From a virus, in the IMG/VR virus record IMGVR_UViG_3300034044_000040, positions 21,341 to 85,340 of that record: a stretch of DNA of 64,000 bases. One strand, given 5' to 3'. Made by a program: the position numbers and the translations under genes. Each line of letters opens with the position of its first letter. The stretch's first letter is position 1. This document shows, in pieces, positions 18,145-63,313 of this stretch. The notes under the pieces are model-generated. The model saw only the letters and a list, made by a program, of their open reading frames with translations. It had not been told where the DNA came from and did no database searches.

Positions 18145-19872
18145 ATGACTAACATTCCAACGACTACTACCATGACGCAAGAGCAAGCGGAGCAGCGTAA
18201 CGCTGATGCGTTCAACGAAAAGCTCCGCGTGCTTGACGCCGCAGCGTGTGGCGTCATCCTTTGCCGCACACGTGAACCACATCGCGCCATCGAGGCCGTT
18301 CGCAACTATGCGTTTTCCCGTGAAGGTATGGGATTTTCAAACTGGACGCCACTTTACGGATGGGAAACCTATGATCGGGCTGATCCACTGAAAGACCCGG
18401 ACACGGACGGTGAGCAGAACCCAGTGCCCGCCTTGCACAAAATCGGCGGCATCGGGTCGGGGCAGGGTATGCCCAACGGTTTCTATACCGTATTTTTCCC
18501 GCATTTCTGGCTCAAGGATAATGTGGGCGCACGGGTGCCAATCATCTATACGCTGAAAGAATACGTGCGCCTGTTCTCTGAGACAAAGCGCCGCCTCGTG
18601 CTGATCGCACCGGTCGGGTACACATTGCCCACAGAGATCGCGGAAGATGTCGTGGTTCTAGATTTCGATACACCCAGCTTTGCAGAATTGCGGGCCAGTC
18701 TCGATTTCCTTCTGGACACGCTGGCAAACAATCCGAACATCGGCGACGATAGCAAGCGCCGCGTCGTGGCCAAGGGTATCTCGAACATAAGCGACGAGGA
18801 CAAGCGCCGTATCGTGGCTGCGGGCATGGGCATGAGCCAGCAGGAATTCGAGACCGCAGTGAGCCGCGCCCTTGTCACATATCGCAGGCAGCTCCCTGCC
18901 CTTCCGATTGACGGCATCGTTGACGAGGTTATGTCGGTGAAAACCGAGGTGGTCAAACGCTCCGAGGTTCTTGAGGTCATGCCAACCACGGGCATGGATC
19001 AGGTCGGCGGGCTGGATAACCTGAAGGAATGGGTTGTGAAGCGCAGGGCGTGTTTCTCTACCGAGGCGAAAGAATTCGGCATTGAGGCACCGAAAGGGGC
19101 TGGTCTGTTCGGACCTCCGGGGACCGGCAAAAGCCTCAGCGCCAAGGCCATCGCGTCCTCACTCGGGCTGCCCCTGATCAAGTTTGACGTGGGCCGCGTG
19201 TTCCAGTCCCTTGTCGGGCAATCTGAGGAGCGTGTCAGGGCATCCCTGAAGATGCTCGACAGTCTCGCGCCCTGCGTCGTTTTGCTGGACGAGATTGACA
19301 AAGCCTTCCAAACCAACTCAGGCGGCGATAGCGGGGTATCCCAGCGCGTGCTCGGGGCCATCTTGACCCACATGCAGGAAAGTAGCTCCCCTATCTTCTG
19401 GGTGTTCTCAGCCAACCGTGTTGACCGGCTTCCACCTGAATTGCTGCGCAGGGGTCGCTTGGATGAAATATTCGCGGTCACGGTTCCGGACGAGGACGAG
19501 CGGCTGGAAATCCTGAAAATCCATCTGAACAAGCGCAAGCAAAAGGCGGATGATATTCCGGAACTCGACGCCGCCGTCGCAGCATCAGAAGGGTACGTGC
19601 CTGCGGAAATTGAACAGGCGGTCAAGGATGCGCTGATCGAGGCGTTCACCAACGGTGGAGCTATCACTGGACCACTGATCGCGGAGCAGCTGGCGAACAT
19701 GAAACCATTGTCTGAGGCGTTCGCGGAAGATTTCAACGCCATGCAGCAATGGGCGGAAAACAATGCACGCCCTGCGTCGGCGCGGATCAAGCGGGCCTTA
19801 CCGCTGGTTCGGGATCGCGCAAGCCGCCCCTCCTCAGCAGGTGGCGGGCGTGCGGTACAGATTGGGGCATAG
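18145..19872 (+). CDS. Ycf46-like AAA+ ATPase
   Basis: A 575-residue protein. The N-terminal ~270 residues lack an obvious enzyme motif (LVLIAPVGYTLPTEIAEDVVVLDF segment), then comes DQVGGLDNLKEWVVKR and a full AAA module: Walker A GPPGTGKS (~323-330), Walker B VVLLDEID (~377-384), sensor SAN, arginine fingers in LLRRGRLDE. N-domain pattern plus GGLDNLKEW match the Ycf46 family of cyanobacteria and plastids. It lies upstream of DUF1257 and DUF2997 genes, its usual partners. Its role in phages is unknown; remodelling of a host complex is plausible. Confidence 0.85.
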   Translation: MTNIPTTTTMTQEQAEQRNADAFNEKLRVLDAAACGVILCRTREPHRAIEAVRNYAFSREGMGFSNWTPLYGWETYDRADPLKDPDTDGEQNPVPALHKIGGIGSGQGMPNGFYTVFFPHFWLKDNVGARVPIIYTLKEYVRLFSETKRRLVLIAPVGYTLPTEIAEDVVVLDFDTPSFAELRASLDFLLDTLANNPNIGDDSKRRVVAKGISNISDEDKRRIVAAGMGMSQQEFETAVSRALVTYRRQLPALPIDGIVDEVMSVKTEVVKRSEVLEVMPTTGMDQVGGLDNLKEWVVKRRACFSTEAKEFGIEAPKGAGLFGPPGTGKSLSAKAIASSLGLPLIKFDVGRVFQSLVGQSEERVRASLKMLDSLAPCVVLLDEIDKAFQTNSGGDSGVSQRVLGAILTHMQESSSPIFWVFSANRVDRLPPELLRRGRLDEIFAVTVPDEDERLEILKIHLNKRKQKADDIPELDAAVAASEGYVPAEIEQAVKDALIEAFTNGGAITGPLIAEQLANMKPLSEAFAEDFNAMQQWAENNARPASARIKRALPLVRDRASRPSSAGGGRAVQIGA

Positions 19873-38890: not shown

Positions 38891-38980
38891 TTTTTTTCAA
38901 AAACATGAACTTTTTTCTTGCAAACAATCGTGGGTGTGGTATTCTATATATGTCAGATAGAGAAACTTAGGAGACAGACC
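38891..38980 (+). repeat. 90-bp promoter-leader block, copy A
   Basis: All 90 bases match 49749-49838. The block includes promoter P5 and the ribosome-binding site (TTAGGAGACAGACC), ending just before the start codon. Confidence 0.95.
38918..38945 (+). promoter_or_regulatory. Early-type phage promoter P5
   Basis: TTGCAA (38918-38923), 16-bp spacer with AATCGTGGGTGTGG, TATTCT (38940-38945), then TATATATGTCAGATAGAG. Confidence 0.9.
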
Positions 38981-38981
38981 A

Positions 38982-39167
38982 ATGAAATATTTATCACAAC
39001 TCGCGCAGATCGACATGCAGATCACGGAAGCACAGAAGATCATCGCATACGGCATGATGGATATGCACCAACTGGATCGCCTGCGGGGCCAGCTGGAGCA
39101 CCTGAAAAGGACCAAGCGCAGACTTCAGAAGCAGATCAAGCGCCAGTATCGGGGGGCATTCTCATGA
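38982..39167 (+). CDS. Small coiled-coil protein, unknown
   Basis: A 61-residue, mostly helical, Lys/Arg/Gln-rich protein with an AGGAG ribosome-binding site. First gene behind promoter P5. It overlaps the next gene by 4 bases. Small size and strong promoter suggest an early host-takeover product, but nothing specific can be said. Confidence 0.6.
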   Translation: MKYLSQLAQIDMQITEAQKIIAYGMMDMHQLDRLRGQLEHLKRTKRRLQKQIKRQYRGAFS

Positions 39168-49748: not shown

Positions 49749-49838
49749 TTTTTTTCAAAAACATGAACTTTTTTCTTGCAAACAATCGTGGGTGTGGTAT
49801 TCTATATATGTCAGATAGAGAAACTTAGGAGACAGACC
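49749..49838 (+). repeat. 90-bp promoter-leader block, copy B
   Basis: Identical over 90 bases to 38891-38980, ending at the start codon of the next gene. Includes promoter P9 and the ribosome-binding site. Confidence 0.95.
49776..49803 (+). promoter_or_regulatory. Early-type phage promoter P9
   Basis: TTGCAA (49776-49781), 16-bp spacer with AATCGTGGGTGTGG, TATTCT (49798-49803); identical to P5. Confidence 0.9.
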
Positions 49839-49839
49839 C

Positions 49840-50256
49840 ATGACACGTACAGCCAAAACCACAAAAGTCACCCTCGCGAAGATCAAATCAGCGCAGAAGC
49901 GCCACGCGCGCCAGCTGGCCAAGATCGAGGCTGGTCTGATCGAAGCAGGCACCGTGTATGTAAAGAACGCGATCCAATACAAAGTCCGCAAGGATGGAGT
50001 GCATGAGCGTATGCCGACACGTGATCACCCGGTAACGCGGGAAGAGGTGGTGTTCATGCTGACCAATGTTAGAGCACTGGAACAGGAAGACGTGCTGCAT
50101 TTCATCGGTAAAGGGGCCATGGATTTTATGCTTCAGCATGACCTGTTGCGCAAGTTGGAAGATGGCTTGCTCTGGATCACCACCAACGCGCAACGTAAAT
50201 ACGGTCTCCAAAATCCCATGCTTCCATCAGGTGTCAGGGCACGATACGTGAAGTAA
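49840..50256 (+). CDS. Basic protein, unknown
   Basis: A 138-residue protein with a strongly basic N-terminal helix (~1-35) and a helical core. First and only gene between P9 and a terminator, so a one-gene operon. It may bind nucleic acid. No family recognised. Confidence 0.6.
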   Translation: MTRTAKTTKVTLAKIKSAQKRHARQLAKIEAGLIEAGTVYVKNAIQYKVRKDGVHERMPTRDHPVTREEVVFMLTNVRALEQEDVLHFIGKGAMDFMLQHDLLRKLEDGLLWITTNAQRKYGLQNPMLPSGVRARYVK

Positions 50257-50332: not shown

Positions 50333-50446
50333 GTCGTTTTGTATGGACCTTCCCCTGCGCATGTGCTTGTATAGAAAAGCTGTTTCAACCAGCACTGGCG
50401 AATACACTTTCCCCTAATGAGCACAATTAACCTTTGGAGCCTCCAC

Positions 50447-53179
50447 ATGTTTGATACTGTCACTACGCAGTTTATTGCCCCTGAAACCTCACGCCCGCTG
50501 CATCCCACCATGGGGCAGGGTGTGGCTGAAAGGACGTATTTACGTCGCGTTTTTACGGACCCACAAAAAGCAAGCATCGGCAATGACGGCCTGCATCTGA
50601 ACCCGAGCGATCCAGATTTTCAAAAGTGGTATGTTGCCGCTCTGAATTCGAATGTGCCGGTGGCAGTGTGCGATGACGCAACACATGTAGGCCATGCCCC
50701 TGATACCAGATGGGAAGAATGGCACGAAGTCGCACACCGGGTTGCACTTGGAAATGTTTCATTGCTGCGAACGCTGGCGGACAACACCCCGCATGAAGAA
50801 GGGCTGAATTATATCCGAGACACTCGCAGGAAACTTGCCGATACCACCGCAGTCCCGGAGCATACAATGATGGCGAACGCAATCGCGAACGGGTCACTGC
50901 TGATGTCCGGGCGGCACCTACAGCAGGGTGATGCGAACCAAGCCAACAGGAATATGGAGGTGTTCACGAACTGCGCGACAGCTTCCACCAGCTTCGCCCT
51001 GTTCATGCTGCTACTCAATGGATCAGGAGTAGGCCGGGATTACTCTGACGCGATGATGGCGGTAGACTGGGCAAAGGATATGCCCATGATCGTCCCGGTG
51101 CTGAAGGAAGATCATCCAGATTTCATATGGGGCAGGCATGTATCGGTGAGGGACGCAAAGCACCTCTACAAAACGGGGAAAGACATATACTGGCATGAGG
51201 TCGAGGACAGCCGGGAGGGGTGGGGCAAAGCGATAGAGGCTCTTGAACTGACAACCTACCGCAATGGGCGCAATCGGAAGAAGATAAAACGGGACGTTCG
51301 GGTGAATGTGCTCGTGCTGGATTTCTCAAAAGTGCGGGAAGAAGGGAAACCTATTATGGGGATGCAGGGCCGACCGTCATCCGGCCCTGCCCCCCTGATG
51401 GATGCAATCGAGAAGATCGCGCGGATCAGGGGCACCGGCCTGAAGCCGTGGCTTGCCACCCTGTACATGGATCATTACCTTGCGGAGCCGGTCCTTGTGG
51501 GTGGGGCACGACGATCTGCCCGCATGTCCACGAAGAACTGGAGGGACGAGGACATCCTCGAATTCATCGGGGTGAAACGCCCCATTGAATATGAGGGTAT
51601 GACCATGGAAGACGTGCAGGAACATCAGAAAAATCTGGTAGCCTCCGGTAGGACACTTCCCATGTCTTTCCTGTGGTCATCCAACAATTCAGTGGCCGTG
51701 GACGCGGATTTTTGGGCGCGGGTGAAAGGGCCGATCACCTCAGACCAGATGACTATCAAGGCCAAGATGGTGTACGAATATGCTTGCCAATGTGCCTACG
51801 GCGACGGGACCGGAGAGCCGGGATTTGTGAACGTGGATCGGCTGACCACGAAAGACGAGGGGCTTGGTCTCGGGGAAGAGGAACCCGCCACCGCATTCCG
51901 CGACGGCGAATATATCGGGTCACTGCGGTATCAGGTCAGTGGTAGCACGAAGGAACTGATGCGTGACCTGCATGACCGGTTCAAGGATATGCCGTACCAC
52001 TATATCGTGAACCCTTGTGGAGAAATTGTGTTATGCATTCTCGGGGGGTTCTGCGTCATCGCGGACGTGGTGCCTTTCCATGCTTCATCCATAATCGAAG
52101 CCACGGAAGTCGCGAAGACAGCAGCTCGCGCACTGATACGTGTCAACACCATGGACAGTATATACAATGCTGAGGTGCACCGCACAAACCGCATCGGCGT
52201 CGGAGTGACGGGGATACACGAAGCCGCTTGGAAATTTTTCAGGTGCGGGTTCCGCGACTTGCTGGCACCCGACTTTCAGAAATATGCAGCCTTGTATCCT
52301 TCCTTTGACGAAATGGTGCCGGACAGCGACGATCTGATTGAATTCTTTTCCCAGCACGAAAACCCTGCAATTCGTGCCGCCGCCTTCTGGGATTGGTTGG
52401 GTGATATGGCACGTGCTGTGGAGAAAGAGGCGACACGATACGCGAAGGCACTCGGGGTCAACGTGCCGCACACGTTCCTGACTGTGAAGCCGTCCGGGTC
52501 AGTTTCTAAACTGTTTGGCCTGTCGGAGGGCTGGCACCTACCCGCCATGCGCCATTATATCAGGTGGGTGCAGTATCATAAAAACAGCCCCATGCTGGAT
52601 GAGTACCGGGCCGCAGGCTATCCAGTCCGCGAACTGCAATCCTACCGTGACCACTTCATCGTAGGGTTCCCCACTGAACCTGCGATGTGCGGACTTGATG
52701 GGGTGAATGATCACCTCGTGACGGCGGGCGAGGCCACCATGGCTGAGCAATTCACATGGCTGCGGATGGGCGAATTTTTCCTGATGGAAGGGGGGTCAGC
52801 AAAGGATTGGCTGGATCACGAAGGGAACATGGATAGCTTCCTGTCTGGCAAGCGGGATCGGGGCGTCGAACCCATAGGGAACCAGATCAGTTACACCATG
52901 AAATACGTTCCTGAAGAGACCAGCTTTGAGCATTTCAAATCCGCCATCCTCAACTATCAACCCTACGTCCGGTGTGTCAGCGTGATGCCGCAATCCATGA
53001 CTGCTGCCTACGAATATCTACCGGAGGAACAGGTCAGCATCGTGGACTATCAGAAATTGCTGGCAGACGTGCGCCGGGAAAACAGCACACCCTCTGAGGA
53101 TGTGGGGATCGAGCACCTTGATTGCTCCACTGGGGCGTGCCCCATCGCATTCACGGATGCCAACAAGGAAGACTTGTAG
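50447..53179 (+). CDS. nrdJ: Class II (adenosylcobalamin-dependent) ribonucleotide reductase
   Basis: A 910-residue enzyme making deoxyribonucleotides. Seen: FTNCATASTSFALFMLLLNGSGVGRDYSD near the N-terminal active-site Cys, NPCGEIVL (~522) with the radical-transfer Cys and Glu, VKPSGSVSKLFG (~687), and a C-terminal Cys pair in DCSTGACP for re-reduction. No class I small subunit or activase gene lies nearby, which with the sequence pattern favours class II. GGAG supports ATG 50447 over 50417. Confidence 0.9.
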   Translation: MFDTVTTQFIAPETSRPLHPTMGQGVAERTYLRRVFTDPQKASIGNDGLHLNPSDPDFQKWYVAALNSNVPVAVCDDATHVGHAPDTRWEEWHEVAHRVALGNVSLLRTLADNTPHEEGLNYIRDTRRKLADTTAVPEHTMMANAIANGSLLMSGRHLQQGDANQANRNMEVFTNCATASTSFALFMLLLNGSGVGRDYSDAMMAVDWAKDMPMIVPVLKEDHPDFIWGRHVSVRDAKHLYKTGKDIYWHEVEDSREGWGKAIEALELTTYRNGRNRKKIKRDVRVNVLVLDFSKVREEGKPIMGMQGRPSSGPAPLMDAIEKIARIRGTGLKPWLATLYMDHYLAEPVLVGGARRSARMSTKNWRDEDILEFIGVKRPIEYEGMTMEDVQEHQKNLVASGRTLPMSFLWSSNNSVAVDADFWARVKGPITSDQMTIKAKMVYEYACQCAYGDGTGEPGFVNVDRLTTKDEGLGLGEEEPATAFRDGEYIGSLRYQVSGSTKELMRDLHDRFKDMPYHYIVNPCGEIVLCILGGFCVIADVVPFHASSIIEATEVAKTAARALIRVNTMDSIYNAEVHRTNRIGVGVTGIHEAAWKFFRCGFRDLLAPDFQKYAALYPSFDEMVPDSDDLIEFFSQHENPAIRAAAFWDWLGDMARAVEKEATRYAKALGVNVPHTFLTVKPSGSVSKLFGLSEGWHLPAMRHYIRWVQYHKNSPMLDEYRAAGYPVRELQSYRDHFIVGFPTEPAMCGLDGVNDHLVTAGEATMAEQFTWLRMGEFFLMEGGSAKDWLDHEGNMDSFLSGKRDRGVEPIGNQISYTMKYVPEETSFEHFKSAILNYQPYVRCVSVMPQSMTAAYEYLPEEQVSIVDYQKLLADVRRENSTPSEDVGIEHLDCSTGACPIAFTDANKEDL

Positions 53180-53542: not shown

Positions 53543-54148
53543 ATGAAAAAACCAATGATCACAGTGCCGCATGTCATTGACGAGACGGGCACTGAATTCC
53601 GACTGTACCCAAAAATATCCAAGCCGTTCATGAAAGCCATGGGATACCTGTACCCAGCGTTCGCCTCCTATGACAAGGCTGAGCGGGGATATAGTGCGTT
53701 CCACAATGGGAAATTCGTTGGATGTTTCGGAGGTCTCACGTTGCAGTCAGTACGGCGCAACCCTCTCCTAGTGGAGGACGGTTCTCAGCTGTTCATGCGA
53801 GCATTACTGGGAGGTCTTTCCATAGATGGGTACGCGCATCACTCATCCGTATGCGATCCGAGGAACTATGGCACCCTCAGATTGTGGAAGAAGCTCGGGC
53901 TTGGAGCAAAGCTGGACGGCAGGGGGAAGGCGCGATCTGCATTCGCTGATTTGGAAGGTGCGTCGGTACTTGACATGCTCATACAGGCAATAAATCGTGA
54001 TGAATATGATGAACATCGTGTCATCGCTTCCCGGAGGCTTGCACACCTCACGCCTGAAGACTTCATCCCCACGGAAGATGATTTTTCGAGCAGCTGCGCG
54101 GGGGTTTGTGTAAATTTGAACGTGATACTGCTTGACGAACAAACATAG
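53543..54148 (+). CDS. GNAT-like protein, weak match
   Basis: A 201-residue protein. GYSAFHNGKFVGCFGGLTL followed by DPRNYGTLRLWKKLGLG resembles the GNAT acetyltransferase core and its final N-helix (N.GT..L..KLG), but the acetyl-CoA loop (Q/RxxGxG/A) is not evident. It may be an inactive or highly divergent member. The last residues overlap the promoter at 54132. Confidence 0.45.
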   Translation: MKKPMITVPHVIDETGTEFRLYPKISKPFMKAMGYLYPAFASYDKAERGYSAFHNGKFVGCFGGLTLQSVRRNPLLVEDGSQLFMRALLGGLSIDGYAHHSSVCDPRNYGTLRLWKKLGLGAKLDGRGKARSAFADLEGASVLDMLIQAINRDEYDEHRVIASRRLAHLTPEDFIPTEDDFSSSCAGVCVNLNVILLDEQT

Positions 54149-54189: not shown

Positions 54190-54714
54190 ATGAATGATAT
54201 GTTTGGTATGCCAGTGTGGCACTGGGATGCAGAAGGCTGGAATGATCGGGCCGTAGAATTTGAAGTGGTAACAGCGGTCAACAAAGGTTTGATCAAGCCT
54301 CGTGTCTGGTCTTGGCCTGTGCTGAAGGCGTACAATGGATCAAGTGGCGAAGAACGTATACGCGGGTGGCAAAAAACGTGGGCTGGTATCCACCTGAAAT
54401 TGATCCCCCCTCCCCGTACCTGCTCCATTTGCGGGTCAAGACGGGCGGTCCAGTATCATAACGAGGATTATCTCCGGCCTATGAACGCAAAACCTGTATG
54501 CTCAACGTGTCATAAGGTGTTACATAAACGGTTCTCGAATGAGGGTACGTGGCTGCGGTTGGTCAGAGATTGCGAGTACGATGGATGTTGGTTTTCTGAT
54601 CTGATATTGGGAAGAGAGAGGAGCATCGAGGAGGCGGAGGTGCAGCGTAGCAAATTACAGAAATGGAACATCGACGTTCCTGCCCCTCTATCTCGGGGCC
54701 TCACTGCCCTATAA
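54190..54714 (+). CDS. HNH-like zinc-finger endonuclease candidate
   Basis: A 174-residue protein. RTCSICGSRRAVQYHNEDYLRP then PVCSTCHKVLHKRF gives two CxxC pairs framing a His and a final H, the layout of phage HNH/zinc proteins. The N-terminal 70 residues (MPVWHWDAEGWNDRAVEFEVV) are unassigned. It precedes the ParB-like genes and could nick DNA for them (inference). Confidence 0.6.
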   Translation: MNDMFGMPVWHWDAEGWNDRAVEFEVVTAVNKGLIKPRVWSWPVLKAYNGSSGEERIRGWQKTWAGIHLKLIPPPRTCSICGSRRAVQYHNEDYLRPMNAKPVCSTCHKVLHKRFSNEGTWLRLVRDCEYDGCWFSDLILGRERSIEEAEVQRSKLQKWNIDVPAPLSRGLTAL

Positions 54715-54763
54715 GGATGATACACGCCTGCCCGGCATATTTTCACGCAGTACACTATGGACA

Positions 54764-54778
54764 TTGCAACCCGTTGCA
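54764..54778 (+). repeat. Dispersed palindrome site 16 (TTGCAACCCGTTGCA)
   Basis: Extends to an 18-base near-palindrome (ATTGCAACCCGTTGCAAT). Lies upstream of the first ParB-like start at 54820 (inside it if ATG 54757 is used). Confidence 0.9.
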
Positions 54779-54819
54779 ATTATGGTTCAGTAACAAGTGA
54801 AGCAACAGGCAGGCATCTC

Positions 54820-55458
54820 ATGCATATTGAGCTAGAGAAGCGGGCATTGGACGCGATTACTCCATACGCCCAAAACTCCAAACACCACGGCGAGGAAGAC
54901 GTCGCGCTGATCATGGCATCAATCGAACGGTTCGGGTTCAATGACCCAATAGCAGTCGATGAGGATGGGGTGATAATTGAGGGCCACGGTCGCTATGAAG
55001 CGGCCACAAACCTATCACTCGAACATGTCCCCGTTATAGTGTTGAGCGGTCTCACCGATGAGCAGAAGCGGATGTACCGCATAGCACACAACAAGATCGC
55101 ATTATCATCCACCTTCGATTTTGCAAAGTTGGCAGAAGCTCTAGGGCAGATCGCTGGCGACGACATAACGTACAACCACCTAGGGTTTTCCGACGCAGTT
55201 GCAGATAATTTGGTGAATGTGGTGTTCGGGGATGGCAGCCTGAAGGAACCATCCTTATCATCTGTTGAGCCGTTTGACGTAATTTGGGATACCAAGGAGC
55301 AACGGGACCGATGGCAGGGGTTCATGAAGCGGGTGCACGCAAATTTCCCAAATATGTCTGACGCGGAAGCACTCATCGAATTCATAGAGGAAAGCGGCAT
55401 ACTGAGCGGCATCCGGAACCTGTCCAATGAGGTAGAGGAGGTGACCCATGAGCAGTGA
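54820..55458 (+). CDS. ParB-like (ParB/Srx fold) protein 1
   Basis: A 212-residue protein from ATG 54820 (54757 possible). The ParB N-terminal fold is clear: ITPYAQNSKHH, IMASIERFGFNDPIAVDEDG, IIEGHGRYEAA, VPVIVLSGLTDEQKRMYRIAHNKI. The GHGR catalytic-type motif is present. The C-terminal ~100 residues lack a ParB HTH. It shares 29 identical bases (54916-54944 and 55553-55581) with the next gene. Phage ParB-like proteins often sit near terminase; nuclease, NTPase or regulatory roles have been suggested. Confidence 0.8.
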   Translation: MHIELEKRALDAITPYAQNSKHHGEEDVALIMASIERFGFNDPIAVDEDGVIIEGHGRYEAATNLSLEHVPVIVLSGLTDEQKRMYRIAHNKIALSSTFDFAKLAEALGQIAGDDITYNHLGFSDAVADNLVNVVFGDGSLKEPSLSSVEPFDVIWDTKEQRDRWQGFMKRVHANFPNMSDAEALIEFIEESGILSGIRNLSNEVEEVTHEQ

Positions 55459-56092
55459 CACTCTTGAGGTGACAACCAGAAAAGTGGCGGACCTCATCAG
55501 GGACGAGGAAAACCTCAAGGTACATCCCGTGCTCCAAATTGATCAGCTTGTCGCATCAATCGAACGGTTCGGGTTCAATGATCCTGTGGGTATCGACGAG
55601 CAAAATAATGTGCTGGAAGGTCACGGTCGCCTCCTAGCGGCTGATAAGATTGGCCTCGATGAAGTGCCTGTCGTGGTTATATCCGGGTTGACCGAAGCAG
55701 AGAAGCGAGGGTACCGGATCGCGCACAATCAGACCACCATGAATACGGGGATGAACCGTGACGCGGTTCGGAATGAGTTTCAGGCACTGAACCTGAGCAG
55801 CGATGACTATATGAGCGTAGGTTACGCACAGGATGACGTACTGTTCCTATCGGATATGTTCGATGGGGACGCGAATTCAGACATGGATCATAACGGTCAC
55901 GAGCGTGATAATGTGAGTTCGTTCCTACCTCCGGTGGTGAGGACGTCTATCACGTTTGACAATGACGCGCAGTTTGACAAGTTTCAGGATTTCCAGATGG
56001 CGCTGAGATCGCGGTACCCGGAGGGTGCCACCATAGCGGATCGGTTAATGCTGTTTGTCGATGAATATGAGGGACAGCTGGATGGCCACTAA
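55448..56092 (+). CDS. ParB-like (ParB/Srx fold) protein 2
   Basis: A 214-residue paralogue of the preceding protein: LVASIERFGFNDPVGIDEQN, EGHGRLLAADKIG, VPVVVISGLTEAEKRGYRIAHNQT. C-terminal half is unlike the first copy until a similar final segment (QFDKFQDFQMALRSRYPEG...), matching the end region WQGFMKRVHANFPN of copy 1. Overlaps the neighbours by 11 bases on both sides. Confidence 0.8.
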   Translation: MSSDTLEVTTRKVADLIRDEENLKVHPVLQIDQLVASIERFGFNDPVGIDEQNNVLEGHGRLLAADKIGLDEVPVVVISGLTEAEKRGYRIAHNQTTMNTGMNRDAVRNEFQALNLSSDDYMSVGYAQDDVLFLSDMFDGDANSDMDHNGHERDNVSSFLPPVVRTSITFDNDAQFDKFQDFQMALRSRYPEGATIADRLMLFVDEYEGQLDGH

Positions 56093-57254
56093 GGAAAATG
56101 TAGAATTTTTGGGCGTGAACGTCTATGAAGAGGCGAAACGGCGCATAAAATATTGCTACGCAAACTGGGATCACGTGTGGTTAAGTTTCAGCGGAGGCAA
56201 GGATAGCCTGTGCGTTCTATGGCTGATGCGCGAGGTGCTGGATGATATGGGATTGTCCCACGTCAAGGTTAATGCTTTTTTTCGTGACGAGGAAGTCATT
56301 CCAGACGATGTGATATCCTTCGTTCAAGGTTTCATAGAAAACCCTGATCTTTCATCGCGGTTCAACGTCGCGTATTTCGCGGTACCAATGGCCAGCCACA
56401 TATTCATGATGGGGGAACACTGGCCATATGTTCAGTGGGATAAATCGCGGGAGTGGTTGAGGGAGCCTCCGGAGTACGCCATACGCAAGCTGCATCCTGA
56501 AGATAAGCCCATGGATCAGCACGAAATGAACGGGCTGACCGCCGAGGTGTTGGGATTGAAGGGAAAAATTGCCATACTGAACGGCTTGCGTGCGGACGAA
56601 AGTTTGAACCGGTACCGATCCTGTGTGGCCAAGAAGGGACGATACAACTGGGTCATGGGGTCACCGGGGAAAGGTGAGAAAAATATCGCGTTCTGCAAGC
56701 CTATTTTCGACTGGGCGACTGGCGACTTGTTCAAGTATTTCAAAGAGAAAAACATCACGTATCCCTCAATATACGACACGCAGCTTTATTCCGGAGAGAG
56801 CCTGCGAGTGTCCACCCCCTTGCATGATCGCGCGTATCAATCGCTGGTTAAATTGCGCGTCACTCATCCTAAGTTCTATGAACAAATACTGCACATCTGG
56901 CCTGAAGTTGCCACGCATGAACGGTACTATTGTGCTGTGGATCGCTACGGGATCATTGATCGGTATCCGAAGTCGTGGGAGGGCATCATCCAATATATCG
57001 AGGATAATATTGACAGCCCCACGAACAAAGCAAGAGCCATGGAAGTGCTAAAAAATTGCAAGACCATGAAAGACAAGAACCGCAGACTGGGGCGATATGC
57101 TGATAAGGCGTTCGGCTTTCCATTGTTGCATGTGTTCAAGCAAATAGTGGCGGGGAGCTACATGAAGGGCATATCCACGGAACCTTTCCCTCCCCCGAGC
57201 TACATGGCGTATGAAGAAGCAGCTGAAAACCTTCGCGACGGCGGAAGAGATTAA
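56082..57254 (+). CDS. IbrA-like PP-loop (PAPS-reductase fold) protein
   Basis: A 390-residue protein. PP-loop SFSGGKDS (~35-42), GLRADESLNRY (~166), CKPIFDWATGDLF (~208), YDTQLYSGESLRVS (~230), then a DUF3440-like C-terminus. True PAPS reductases end with an ECGLH-type motif; none is seen, so sulfate assimilation is unlikely. The pattern and the IbrB-like neighbour match IbrA of E. coli, described as a co-regulator of immunoglobulin-binding (eib) genes. AMP-forming activity on an unknown substrate is expected from the fold. Confidence 0.8.
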   Translation: MATKENVEFLGVNVYEEAKRRIKYCYANWDHVWLSFSGGKDSLCVLWLMREVLDDMGLSHVKVNAFFRDEEVIPDDVISFVQGFIENPDLSSRFNVAYFAVPMASHIFMMGEHWPYVQWDKSREWLREPPEYAIRKLHPEDKPMDQHEMNGLTAEVLGLKGKIAILNGLRADESLNRYRSCVAKKGRYNWVMGSPGKGEKNIAFCKPIFDWATGDLFKYFKEKNITYPSIYDTQLYSGESLRVSTPLHDRAYQSLVKLRVTHPKFYEQILHIWPEVATHERYYCAVDRYGIIDRYPKSWEGIIQYIEDNIDSPTNKARAMEVLKNCKTMKDKNRRLGRYADKAFGFPLLHVFKQIVAGSYMKGISTEPFPPPSYMAYEEAAENLRDGGRD

Positions 57255-57264
57255 GGAATACCAC

Positions 57265-57795
57265 ATGTTCACAGATTTTGATAAACAGCCGATCAACCGG
57301 GTACAGTGGGTGCCAGTTGATCAGCTGAATGCCAATGACTACAATCCTAATCACGTTTTGGCGCAGGAAATGCGTCTTCTGAAGCATTCGATGCTGGAGC
57401 AGGGGTGGATACAGCCGGTGCTGGTCTCAAAAGCTGACGACGAGGATACCTACACCATCATCGACGGGTTTCATCGCGCCACCTTGGTGAAGACTGACAA
57501 GCACGTCTTTAATATGACGAACGGGTTCGTGCCTTGCGTGATCATGGACATGACAGTGCCTGAACGTAAAATGCTCACCGTCCGCATCAATCGGGCGAAA
57601 GGCTCACATAGCGCTGTGCGTATGCATGAGATCGTTGCCGGTCTGGTATCCGAACATGGCCTTCCTGTAGACGCGATCATGCGCGGAATTGGGGCCACGA
57701 GACATGAGGTCGATACTCTTCTGACGGAGAATTTGTTCAAAAAATTCGATGTGGACAACACACCGTACTCGGAAGCGTGGAAACCGAAGGACTAA
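57265..57795 (+). CDS. IbrB-like ParB-fold protein
   Basis: A 176-residue protein. WVPVDQLNANDYNPN, EMRLLKHSMLEQGWIQPVLVS, TIIDGFHRATL and MTVPERKMLTVRINRAKGSH define the IbrB branch of the ParB-like family (DGFHR in place of GHGR). It immediately follows the IbrA-like gene, as in E. coli. TAAGGAA favours ATG 57265; ATG 57211 would overlap the IbrA gene by 44 bases. Confidence 0.8.
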   Translation: MFTDFDKQPINRVQWVPVDQLNANDYNPNHVLAQEMRLLKHSMLEQGWIQPVLVSKADDEDTYTIIDGFHRATLVKTDKHVFNMTNGFVPCVIMDMTVPERKMLTVRINRAKGSHSAVRMHEIVAGLVSEHGLPVDAIMRGIGATRHEVDTLLTENLFKKFDVDNTPYSEAWKPKD

Positions 57796-57833: not shown

Positions 57834-57859
57834 AAACCTCACTTAGGTGGGGTTTTTTC
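57834..57859 (+). terminator. Rho-independent terminator
   Basis: AACCTCAC / GTGGGGTT stem (one wobble pair) around TTAG, followed by T-rich sequence. It ends the Ibr operon and sits just upstream of promoter P10. Confidence 0.8.
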
Positions 57860-57868
57860 ATTTTTTCC

Positions 57869-57896
57869 TTGCAAACAATCGTGGTTGTGTTATTCT
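57869..57896 (+). promoter_or_regulatory. Early-type phage promoter P10
   Basis: TTGCAA (57869-57874), 16-bp spacer with AATCGTGGTTGTG, TATTCT (57891-57896). Confidence 0.9.
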
Positions 57897-57924
57897 GATA
57901 AGGTAAGAAAGGGCGCACGACGAA

Positions 57925-57939
57925 TTGCAACCAGTTGCA
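57925..57939 (+). repeat. Dispersed palindrome site 17 (TTGCAACCAGTTGCA)
   Basis: The only CA-centred copy (the reverse of TG). It begins 28 bases after the P10 -10 element, so it would overlap the early transcribed region, a classic repressor position. Confidence 0.88.
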
Positions 57940-60407: not shown

Positions 60408-61307
60408 ATGGGGGCACCTCGGATGTCCGATCCTAGCGGCAGCACGCCCCCGAACCAGCGGGGAGGGCAGCCAGAAATTTCACAGGTGGTGGCTGAAAGG
60501 TTGGACCGCATCATTGCGGACCCAGACGGCGTGGTCAATCTAAACGAGGTTTACGACGGCCCAGCGGGGGCACTTCCACAGGAGGTGGCTGATCGCGTAA
60601 GATCAATCAACACATATAGCTCGGGGTACACGTGGCCTTTCATCAAGCAGGCCCTTCGATACATGGTGTTCTCTGGGGTACCACATGATCAGATAGCAAA
60701 AAAATTCAATGTGACGTGGCGCACCTGCCACCGTTGGATCACCCGGATGCAGAAGGAATGGGATGGGGACGTCCTGAACTTCAGCCCCCGTGCTCAGTTC
60801 GCCAAAAGTCTGCAACTCAAACAAATGGTAATCGAGCAGCTTCTACAGCAGGCGGCGGCACCCGGAAACACGGTCAGAGATAAGGTCCATGTTCTGACGC
60901 AGGTATCCCGCATCGACAATGACATCGCTGTGCTCATCAACATGGCCGGGGGATGGGCGGATCAGCCTCTATGCCAGCAGCAGTTACAATCCGCGAAAAC
61001 ACGGGACACCATCGAAGAAAGGTCAGAGGTTGAAACCATCGGGGACATGATGAAGAGTTTCATGCGGGGCGGCATGGAGGATGCTGAGATCATCGACGAT
61101 CCGGAAGACGAGAGAGGGGATCAAGAAACCCAAGCAGATGACCCAGAACCTGCCAGTCCAGAACCTGCTCGCGCAGTTGACCACACGTCAGAGAAAGCAC
61201 CTGAAGTTAGGGAACGTCGCGCCCCGACTGACATGATCCGAAACAGAGTGCGCCGGGTGACGAGCAGACCGGATGCATCATCCACAGACGACACGGATAA
61301 TCACTGA
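60408..61307 (+). CDS. Terminase small subunit
   Basis: A 299-residue protein. Residues ~75-125 hold a helix-turn-helix (FSGVPHDQIAKKFNVTWRTCHRWITRMQKEW) fitting a DNA-recognition domain; a helical core follows and the C-terminal ~100 residues are acidic then basic, low complexity. It overlaps the large-subunit start by one base. The call rests on HTH plus position. ATG 60423 is an alternative start. Confidence 0.75.
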   Translation: MGAPRMSDPSGSTPPNQRGGQPEISQVVAERLDRIIADPDGVVNLNEVYDGPAGALPQEVADRVRSINTYSSGYTWPFIKQALRYMVFSGVPHDQIAKKFNVTWRTCHRWITRMQKEWDGDVLNFSPRAQFAKSLQLKQMVIEQLLQQAAAPGNTVRDKVHVLTQVSRIDNDIAVLINMAGGWADQPLCQQQLQSAKTRDTIEERSEVETIGDMMKSFMRGGMEDAEIIDDPEDERGDQETQADDPEPASPEPARAVDHTSEKAPEVRERRAPTDMIRNRVRRVTSRPDASSTDDTDNH

Positions 61308-63313
61308 TGTACACGCCCCCACAGGATACCTTGGAGGAACAGCGCACCGCTCGGGATCGCGATATATGGCTCAGCGAGCAGAAGCAGCGTATGGAGCACA
61401 TCTACGCCAGCGCCCTTGCACGGGGGCACAAACGGGAAGGTGAGATATTTCGGTATGCAACGGAGCAGCTGATCCTGCACGACAACCAAATACCGTATGA
61501 AATGTTGTCCCGCATGAACAAGCAGCCGGTGACCATTGACGAGTTTGTGCAAAGCGACGAATTTCTCGGAGACTTAATGGATGTCTGGCCAATGCTGATG
61601 CGTGACCTGCGGCTGATGAACCCGGATGTGTTCGTGGGTGAACCCCCTTGTCATGAGGCATTGTTGGGTGGCGCGACGGGTACGGGTAAAACACACCTCA
61701 GTCAGATCACGAACATGTTCCAGCTGTATGGGTTCACCTGCTTCAACGAGGTACAGCGGATGTACCGGCTGGCAGCCAAGACCCCCATCGTATTCATGCT
61801 TCAATCCGTCAGCCCGACCATCACGAAGCGGGTTATATACAAGCCATTGCGCGACACCTTCACGGCAATGCCATATTTCCAGAAGAACATCACCTATGAC
61901 AGGTACAATGAGAGCACCCTGCTCATAGAGGGTGGCCTTGTGGTTGCTCCTATGGCGGCGAGCGTGCAATCTCTGGTAGGTCAGGCCATCCCCGGTGGCA
62001 TCCTCGACGAGGTGAACTTCATGTCAGTCGTGGAAAACTCCAAACAGGTGGCAGGGCCGCAGGGACTTGGTGGGTATTACAATCAGGCGGAAGTGGTATA
62101 CACGAACATTTCTCGCAGGCGTAAGCGCTCATTCCTGACGCGGGGATACAGCTTAGGTACCCTGTGCGTGGTGTCATCCACCAGATATAATGGTGACTTT
62201 CTCGACAAGCGCATTTCTGAGGTGGATGAGTTTGGGGAGAAAAACATCGTCACCCTGCGCAGGAAACAGTATGAGGTGGCACCGCAGGAACGGTATTCCG
62301 GTGATACCTTCACCTATATGATCTCATCCCCAGACACCCCCGGCAGGGTGATTGAGGCCGACGAGGTGGCAGGGGTGCATTACCCTGAAGGTGCCCGCCT
62401 TGAACAGGTTCCAATCGAACTGATAAATGACTTCAGGCGTGACCCGGAGGCAGCACAGCGCGACTATATGGGCATCGCAACTGATGCGATCACCCCCTTC
62501 ATCAGAAAGCGCCAGAAGATCAATGATGCTGTGAGCAGGGGAGCCGCCCGTGATCTGTTGCCCCTCATAGAGAGCGATCAGGTGGATTTGGCAGAAGACG
62601 GAATGCCAACATTCATACCGGAGAACTTCCCGAGAACGCGGGCACGCAGGAACAAGAGCCGGTGGGTGCATATCGACTTGAGCAGAGTGAATGACAGATG
62701 TGGCATCGCCATGCTGGCATTGGAGGGGTTCGTCAACAAAGCGATGGATGGCCCGGACGGTCTCACTGAAATACTGCCAAAATTCACCGTGGAGCTTGCG
62801 GTCGGCATCAAACCGTCAGTCGTGCGCGAGATCAACATCGCCGAGGTGCGGGCATGGGTGCTCCAGCTGGCAAGGGATTACGGCCTCAATATCGAGGGCA
62901 TCAGCTTTGATGGGTTTGACAGCCGAGAAACCATACAGGTGCTCAGGAACTCAGGTATGCGCGCCGGGACAGTGAGTATGGATCGGGACGTCACGCCGTA
63001 CCACACGCTCAGGGATGCATTGTACGAGGATCGTCTTGACATTCAGCCAGATATTGATCTTCTACTCACAGAGTTGAGAACCATCGAATACTACAAGGAG
63101 AAGAACAAAATTGACCACCCGCCCAACGGTACAAAGGACGTATCTGACTGCGTTGCCGGGGCCATAGCATCTGCCATGAAATCACGGGTGGTCAGAAACG
63201 GCATGGAGATCGTAAGTGGTGATCATCCTGAAGATGGAAGCACACAGCCTCCACGTTTCCGGGTTCGGAGAGAGCGCCACCGTATAGAGAGAAATCGGGA
63301 GAGACCCAGATGA
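61307..63313 (+). CDS. terL: Terminase large subunit
   Basis: A 668-residue packaging motor. ATPase: LLGGATGTGKTH (Walker A, ~122-130), a long ATPase core with GGILDEVNFMSV (acidic Walker B-like region, ~228), NTPase coupling strand VVSSTRYNG. RNase H nuclease: WVHIDLSRVNDRCG (Asp ~451), ISFDGFDSRE (Asp ~539) and KDVSDCVAGA (Asp ~609). It cleaves concatemers and pumps DNA into the prohead. Confidence 0.93.
   Translation: MYTPPQDTLEEQRTARDRDIWLSEQKQRMEHIYASALARGHKREGEIFRYATEQLILHDNQIPYEMLSRMNKQPVTIDEFVQSDEFLGDLMDVWPMLMRDLRLMNPDVFVGEPPCHEALLGGATGTGKTHLSQITNMFQLYGFTCFNEVQRMYRLAAKTPIVFMLQSVSPTITKRVIYKPLRDTFTAMPYFQKNITYDRYNESTLLIEGGLVVAPMAASVQSLVGQAIPGGILDEVNFMSVVENSKQVAGPQGLGGYYNQAEVVYTNISRRRKRSFLTRGYSLGTLCVVSSTRYNGDFLDKRISEVDEFGEKNIVTLRRKQYEVAPQERYSGDTFTYMISSPDTPGRVIEADEVAGVHYPEGARLEQVPIELINDFRRDPEAAQRDYMGIATDAITPFIRKRQKINDAVSRGAARDLLPLIESDQVDLAEDGMPTFIPENFPRTRARRNKSRWVHIDLSRVNDRCGIAMLALEGFVNKAMDGPDGLTEILPKFTVELAVGIKPSVVREINIAEVRAWVLQLARDYGLNIEGISFDGFDSRETIQVLRNSGMRAGTVSMDRDVTPYHTLRDALYEDRLDIQPDIDLLLTELRTIEYYKEKNKIDHPPNGTKDVSDCVAGAIASAMKSRVVRNGMEIVSGDHPEDGSTQPPRFRVRRERHRIERNRERPR

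Follow-up and report, generated by a model that had tools for sequence, protein, structure and literature searches.

The locus considered here lies in a stretch of 64,000 nucleotides (the window), which corresponds to bases 21341-85340 of the 85,340-base virus record IMGVR_UViG_3300034044_000040, and comprises genes for an HNH-type protein, two paralogous ParB-fold proteins and IbrA and IbrB, a pair that is already known by name. The first-pass annotation had described these genes as one coupled cluster, and the open reading frames do overlap as described, by 11 nt between ParB1 and ParB2, 11 nt between ParB2 and IbrA and 44 nt between IbrA and IbrB. The same gene order (HNH, ParB, ParB, IbrA, IbrB) is found in the Rhizobium phages RHph_I4 and L338C, whose counterparts carry the IbrA/IbrB annotation (the annotation of L338C splits its first ParB into two short coding sequences). 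Because related phages hold a ParB-methyltransferase pair in the slot of this cassette, it is probably an uncharacterised phage means of modifying or controlling its own DNA. The genes of the cassette, its end and the terminase region that follows it are:

54190..54714, + strand: HNH-type protein, with the motif C..C...H.EDY....C..CH...H (endonuclease family phrog_2340, E=1.8e-7)
54820..55458, + strand: ParB1, an orphan ParB-fold protein with box II EGHGR (phrog_620, E=6e-46; ParB_N, E=1e-4)
55448..56092, + strand: ParB2, a paralogue of ParB1 with box II EGHGR (phrog_620, E=4e-41; phrog_498, E=2e-32)
56082..57254, + strand: IbrA, a PP-loop ATP-pyrophosphatase-type enzyme (PF01507 PAPS_reduct, 3.8e-10; phrog_2302, 8.5e-98)
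57211..57795, + strand: IbrB, its ParB/Srx-fold partner, with the motif DGFHR (ParB_N, 4.9e-7; phrog_2159, a PHROG ParB family, 2e-68)
57834..57863, + strand: hairpin and T-run resembling an intrinsic terminator, at the end of the cluster
60408..61307, + strand: helix-turn-helix (HTH) protein in the position of the small terminase, a role assigned by position (HTH_23, E=5e-4)
61307..63313, + strand: large terminase (TerL), to which the cassette is linked; a homologue of the annotated terminase of RHph_I4

The Pfam match of the HNH protein is weak, and that of ParB2 to ParB_N lies under the cut-off (E=0.031, Pfam scan); phrog_498, which ParB2 matches, covers the ParB portion of a family of DNA methyltransferases. 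An alternative start of ParB1 exists at 54757, and 54820 was chosen because homologues, a Rhizobium ParB among them, align from there. An Rfam scan of the locus found no RNA.

The IbrA-IbrB pair and its partners

Loci were gathered from IMG/VR and from named phages, 97 with a long-form IbrA like that of the window and 70 with other IbrAs, and ParB and IbrB were counted in the non-redundant loci with upstream sequence (71 long-form, 61 other). A ParB1-type ParB is encoded within 2 kb upstream of the long-form IbrA in 70 of the 71 loci, directly adjacent in 62 of them, and IbrB is present in all 71; in the other loci, ParB is upstream in 30/61 and IbrB present in 59/61. Of 78 non-redundant long-form loci, 65 have a gene of the window's HNH family no more than 5 kb from IbrA; this holds for 2 of 65 loci with other IbrAs (Fisher p ~1e-24, uncorrected for relatedness). 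The HNH gene is upstream in the phage group of the window, downstream of IbrB in many loci and, in some, placed between the two genes of the pair. In the loci L036 (11645), L033 (4147) and L028 (11085), an HNH gene, a methyltransferase gene (phrog_11826) or a GNAT-like gene, the last label resting on inspection of the sequence, separates IbrA from IbrB. The cassette is present in the cultured phages Daisy (Mycobacterium), Kovu (Arthrobacter), 031MP004 (Bacillus subtilis) and RHph_I4 (Rhizobium), and relatives of IbrA were matched in 215 phage records and 572 plasmid records; in one of them, a Klebsiella plasmid (L015), a two-gene IbrA-IbrB pair lies beside the fec and iro iron-uptake genes.

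Regarding the putative enzyme, the PP-loop motif SGGKDS of IbrA (residues 37-42) is conserved throughout alignments of 8 to 73 homologues (with one S-for-G change in a set of 13 sequences), together with DxE (residues 69-71), GxRxxES...R and P..DW...D. Among 67 homologues, no column holds an invariant cysteine, the commonest one (position 228, 51/67) being a proline in the IbrA of the window, and none of the 67 has the catalytic C-terminal ECG(L/I)H of CysH. This bears out the earlier statement that IbrA lacks the ECGLH-type end and is not a real 3'-phosphoadenosine 5'-phosphosulphate (PAPS) reductase, and it rules out canonical PAPS reduction or sulphur metabolism as its function. Its AlphaFold2 model (predicted local distance difference test, pLDDT, 91.5) has as nearest solved folds the PAPS domain of FAD synthase, CysH, the ATP sulfurylase CysD and FMN adenylyltransferase, as well as tRNA thiolases and TilS. 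IbrA thus has the PP-loop adenine nucleotide alpha-hydrolase fold in common with CysH, CysD and FAD synthase, but it lacks the catalytic ECGLH cysteine and has an extra C-terminal helical part of ~130 residues, features that favour adenylation without protein-borne sulphur. A phmmer search of IbrA against the PDB gave no match, and a viral scan with this single sequence matched only a near-identical phage.

The naming of the pair in the first-pass annotation is likewise backed by the annotation of the Rhizobium phages and by the adjacency of the two homologous genes. The identity is 35% between IbrB and its counterpart in E. coli phage PhiR5_2 and, for IbrA, 27% over 259 residues, and the DG[F/Y]HR motif of IbrB is kept in 75/76 loci. 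The pairs of E. coli and of the annotated Rhizobium phages (L338C, RHph_I4) resemble that of the window in being homologous adjacent genes with DGFHR in IbrB and SGGKDS in IbrA. Unlike the E. coli pair, the cassette of the window is not a two-gene island, since it has a long-form IbrA, one or two extra ParBs and an HNH gene, and usually precedes the terminase.

As for the three ParB-fold proteins, their scores against the ParABS-type model TIGR00180 (25, 16 and 26 bits) lie under the cut-off of 58, and no HTH domain was detected in them by a Pfam scan, which rules out a partition system. No ParA was found adjacent to the cassette among the matches listed (25 of 50 Pfam families).

The slot ahead of the terminase

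The cassette usually lies just ahead of the DNA-packaging genes. The large terminase was detected with phrog_2 in 28 of 50 long-form IbrA records, and 18 of the 23 mapped long-form virus records have it no more than 6.5 kb downstream and on the strand of the cassette, versus 2.5 expected at random placement, an expectation that ignores shared ancestry; for other IbrAs, the linkage is seen in 7/16 (1.4 expected). The distance is 4 kb in the window. The rule is not absolute, the terminase of RHph_I4 being ~42 kb from the cassette, and two viral TerL matches are on the opposite strand.

The occupants of this slot alternate among relatives. In the phage of the window and in two relatives (G077 and G075), the order is ParB1-ParB2-IbrA-IbrB followed by TerL. 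Three other phages (G080, G076 and G092), which have replication or structural genes and the terminase in common with the phage of the window, carry instead a ParB and a ParB fusion of ~500-540 residues (phrog_5475), followed by the terminase. A further scan gave 18 fusion loci, G092 included, with a ParB directly upstream in all 17 that cover that position and the terminase next in most; IbrA and the window-type HNH are absent from 18/18. In the model of the fusion (pLDDT 74), the N-terminal part matches structures of ParB and the C-terminal half those of class I S-adenosylmethionine (SAM) methyltransferases. From the gene order of the relatives at that slot, ParB2-IbrA-IbrB occupies the position of the ParB-methyltransferase.

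Compared with the ParB and ParB-methyltransferase cassette as represented by phrog_620 and phrog_5475 (Pseudomonas SM1, Gordonia Evaa), the cassette of the window has a homologous upstream ParB in the slot before TerS/TerL of related phages, and this ParB stands directly upstream of the presumed modifying enzyme. It differs in that it has ParB2-IbrA-IbrB where the other cassette has the methyltransferase fusion, and in the window-type HNH, which does not accompany the fusion; no PF01555 methyltransferase was found in the genome of the phage of the window, where IbrA takes that place. In named phages, ParBs of the same type neighbour a 'DNA modification methylase' or a TGT-like enzyme, or stand by themselves ahead of the terminase. 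In one locus (L333, Fusobacterium phage phiFN37), an IbrA-IbrB pair is accompanied, separately and nearby, by a ParB, a TGT-like/queuine transferase and a queuosine-precursor transporter.

Phage DNA modification enzymes, an AMP-forming ligase that acts on a DNA base among them, have been described with ParBc proteins as fusion partners or neighbours (PMC12783734), and a survey of phage ParB-methyltransferase fusions, in which ParB-fold proteins are noted to bind nucleoside triphosphates, has also been published (PMC12704722); a word search of the latter for PAPS gave no mention. In the limited open-access set searched, neither the ParB-IbrA-IbrB-HNH unit nor its terminase linkage nor the slot alternation was found.

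Possible functions of the cassette

That one slot holds IbrAB in some relatives and a ParB-methyltransferase in others is the strongest single argument for DNA modification, and the cluster is tentatively read here, with the balance close to even, as an adenylation-driven cassette by which the phage modifies DNA. In this mechanism, the PP-loop of IbrA would use ATP to activate a base or a small-molecule acceptor, releasing AMP and pyrophosphate, and IbrB, as a nucleotide-binding ParB-fold protein with the DG[F/Y]HR motif, would be its obligate partner. ParB1 and ParB2 would load the complex onto DNA or target it there, a role also presumed for the ParB domain of ParB-DNA-methyltransferase cassettes, and the HNH protein might act on, or be guided by, the modified state. 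The place just ahead of the terminase suggests that all this might happen before or during packaging. The nearest parallel in terms of chemistry would be the CmoX/CmoY DNA hypermodification system (PMC12783734), in which a ParBc protein also neighbours an AMP-forming enzyme, for which adenylation of the substrate has been proposed, but CmoY is not a PP-loop IbrA and the phage of the window lacks a PF01555-type methyltransferase.

Several points weigh against this proposal. DNA modification itself is inferred from gene content, motifs, fold and linkage, and the E. coli IbrAB pair has been published as an activator, co-activation of the prophage eib genes being reported (Sandt 2002, as cited in PMC8065619). 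The methyltransferase part of the fusions is most like small-molecule or general methyltransferases, DNA being a putative substrate, and the slot before the terminase is a general insertion region prone to gene turnover, so that the alternation could be coincidental. In addition, box II of the upstream ParB reads AGNHT, without the arginine, in many actinophage members, and no gene for precursor supply was identified among the neighbours of the cassette.

A more far-reaching version, possible but doubtful, would place the cassette in a class of phage DNA modification not described before: a PP-loop IbrA without conserved cysteines and its obligate IbrB, targeted by orphan ParBs and coupled to a dedicated HNH nuclease, would install an adenylation-dependent base modification near packaging; the classical 'co-activation' by IbrAB would then be a downstream effect of the DNA mark. 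In the open-access literature searched, the only names given to IbrA and IbrB are 'co-activators' and 'PAPS reductases' although both are common on phages and plasmids, and the conserved unit and the slot alternation turn this annotation puzzle into a testable proposal, namely that the two form an enzyme pair that modifies DNA.

DNA modification and the regulation of transcription had both been put forward by the first-pass annotation, and they come first here. As a transcription regulator, IbrA/IbrB and the ParBs would co-activate late or moron genes of the phage from the junction of early and late genes, a frequent place for late regulators. This is unlikely: it fits the homology to IbrA/IbrB, the position ahead of the terminase and structural genes and the operator-like palindromes in promoter regions of this phage family, but those palindromes occur in relatives devoid of IbrA and are missing from other IbrA phages, HTH domains went undetected in all four proteins, a pure activator needs no strictly conserved PP-loop active site, and methyltransferase fusions sit in the same slot. 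An improbable option is a packaging accessory, the ParBs, IbrAB and the HNH protein aiding the terminase by, for example, nicking, marking or site selection. The same-strand TerL linkage described above agrees with it, as do the ParBs that adjoin terminases in unrelated phages and the known cases of packaging HNH proteins encoded next to terminases (PMC9658991), but the HNH family tracks IbrA and not TerL, other IbrA phages have the pair beside helicases, and the Rhizobium phage cassette stands far from its terminase. A host-directed enzyme, modifying a tRNA or a host factor or countering defence, is distinctly improbable, since the steady coupling to ParBs and HNH points to DNA, even if the tRNA thiolases and TilS among the nearest folds and the mobile distribution on plasmids and prophages would suit it.

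Finally, the resemblance to DNA phosphorothioation noted earlier holds for composition, a PP-loop enzyme of the PAPS reductase superfamily with ParB-fold and HNH proteins, as in Dnd/Ssp (DndC/SspD, DndB, SspE), and finds no support beyond that, a Dnd-like sulphur insertion being very improbable because IbrA has neither the ECGLH end nor, across the 67 homologues, a conserved cysteine, and its match to DndC covers only the PP-loop (E=3.8e-4) instead of the full length of DndC/SspD. A PADLOC scan of the other 89 proteins predicted from the 85-kb record, which may be incomplete, listed no DndA, DndD, DndE or SspBC, and the two systems are not homologous as such.

The dispersed palindrome and other features

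The 14-bp palindrome TGCAACNNGTTGCA is present in 29 copies in the 85-kb record (from 397 to 63592 in the window), in 45 copies in RHph_I4 and in 47 in L338C. The window holds 21 sites with at most two mismatches, against 0.47 expected, so the dispersed palindrome reported by the first-pass annotation is real. Its centre is only CC, CA, GG or TG in the record of the window and varies in RHph_I4, where 26/42 copies are intergenic versus 5.5% expected and many precede a phage promoter-like sequence by ~10 bp. The palindrome is an operator-like element dispersed through the genomes of this phage family. The suggestion that it is the target of the cluster did not survive: G076 and G080 have 37 and 48 copies and no IbrA, and the palindrome is absent as an enriched repeat from IbrA-bearing Bacillus, Arthrobacter and Mycobacterium phages, a double dissociation because of which it is not the obligatory target of IbrAB. 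Since the ParB1 leader contains one copy and another is found downstream of the cluster at 57925, the cassette may be regulated by the reader of the palindrome. Intersecting proteomes pointed to no single candidate for this reader, because the long-enough palindrome-rich genomes belong to one phage family with many common genes. The regulatory features closest to the cassette are:

54764..54779, no strand: palindrome copy TTGCAACCCGTTGCAA, in the ParB1 leader
57856..57911, + strand: phage-type promoter repeat downstream of the cluster, from a family of 9-10 copies

This phage-specific promoter-like family, CTTGCAAACAATCGTGGTTGTGGTATTCTAT, spans 18063-57911 of the window and has an unusually conserved spacer. 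A promoter had also been placed at 54132, ahead of the HNH gene, but a sigma-70 scan did not return it and it resembles the phage family (CTTGCA...TGTGGTA) only by eye. Elsewhere, a 95-bp promoter region is duplicated with 99% identity (38891-38985 and 49749-49843). Other genes of the phage include a B12-dependent (class II) ribonucleotide reductase at 50417-53179, common to G080 and the Rhizobium phages, and an AAA ATPase at 18145-19869, which matches IetA defence models (PADLOC, E=1e-21) and is conserved in the phage family.

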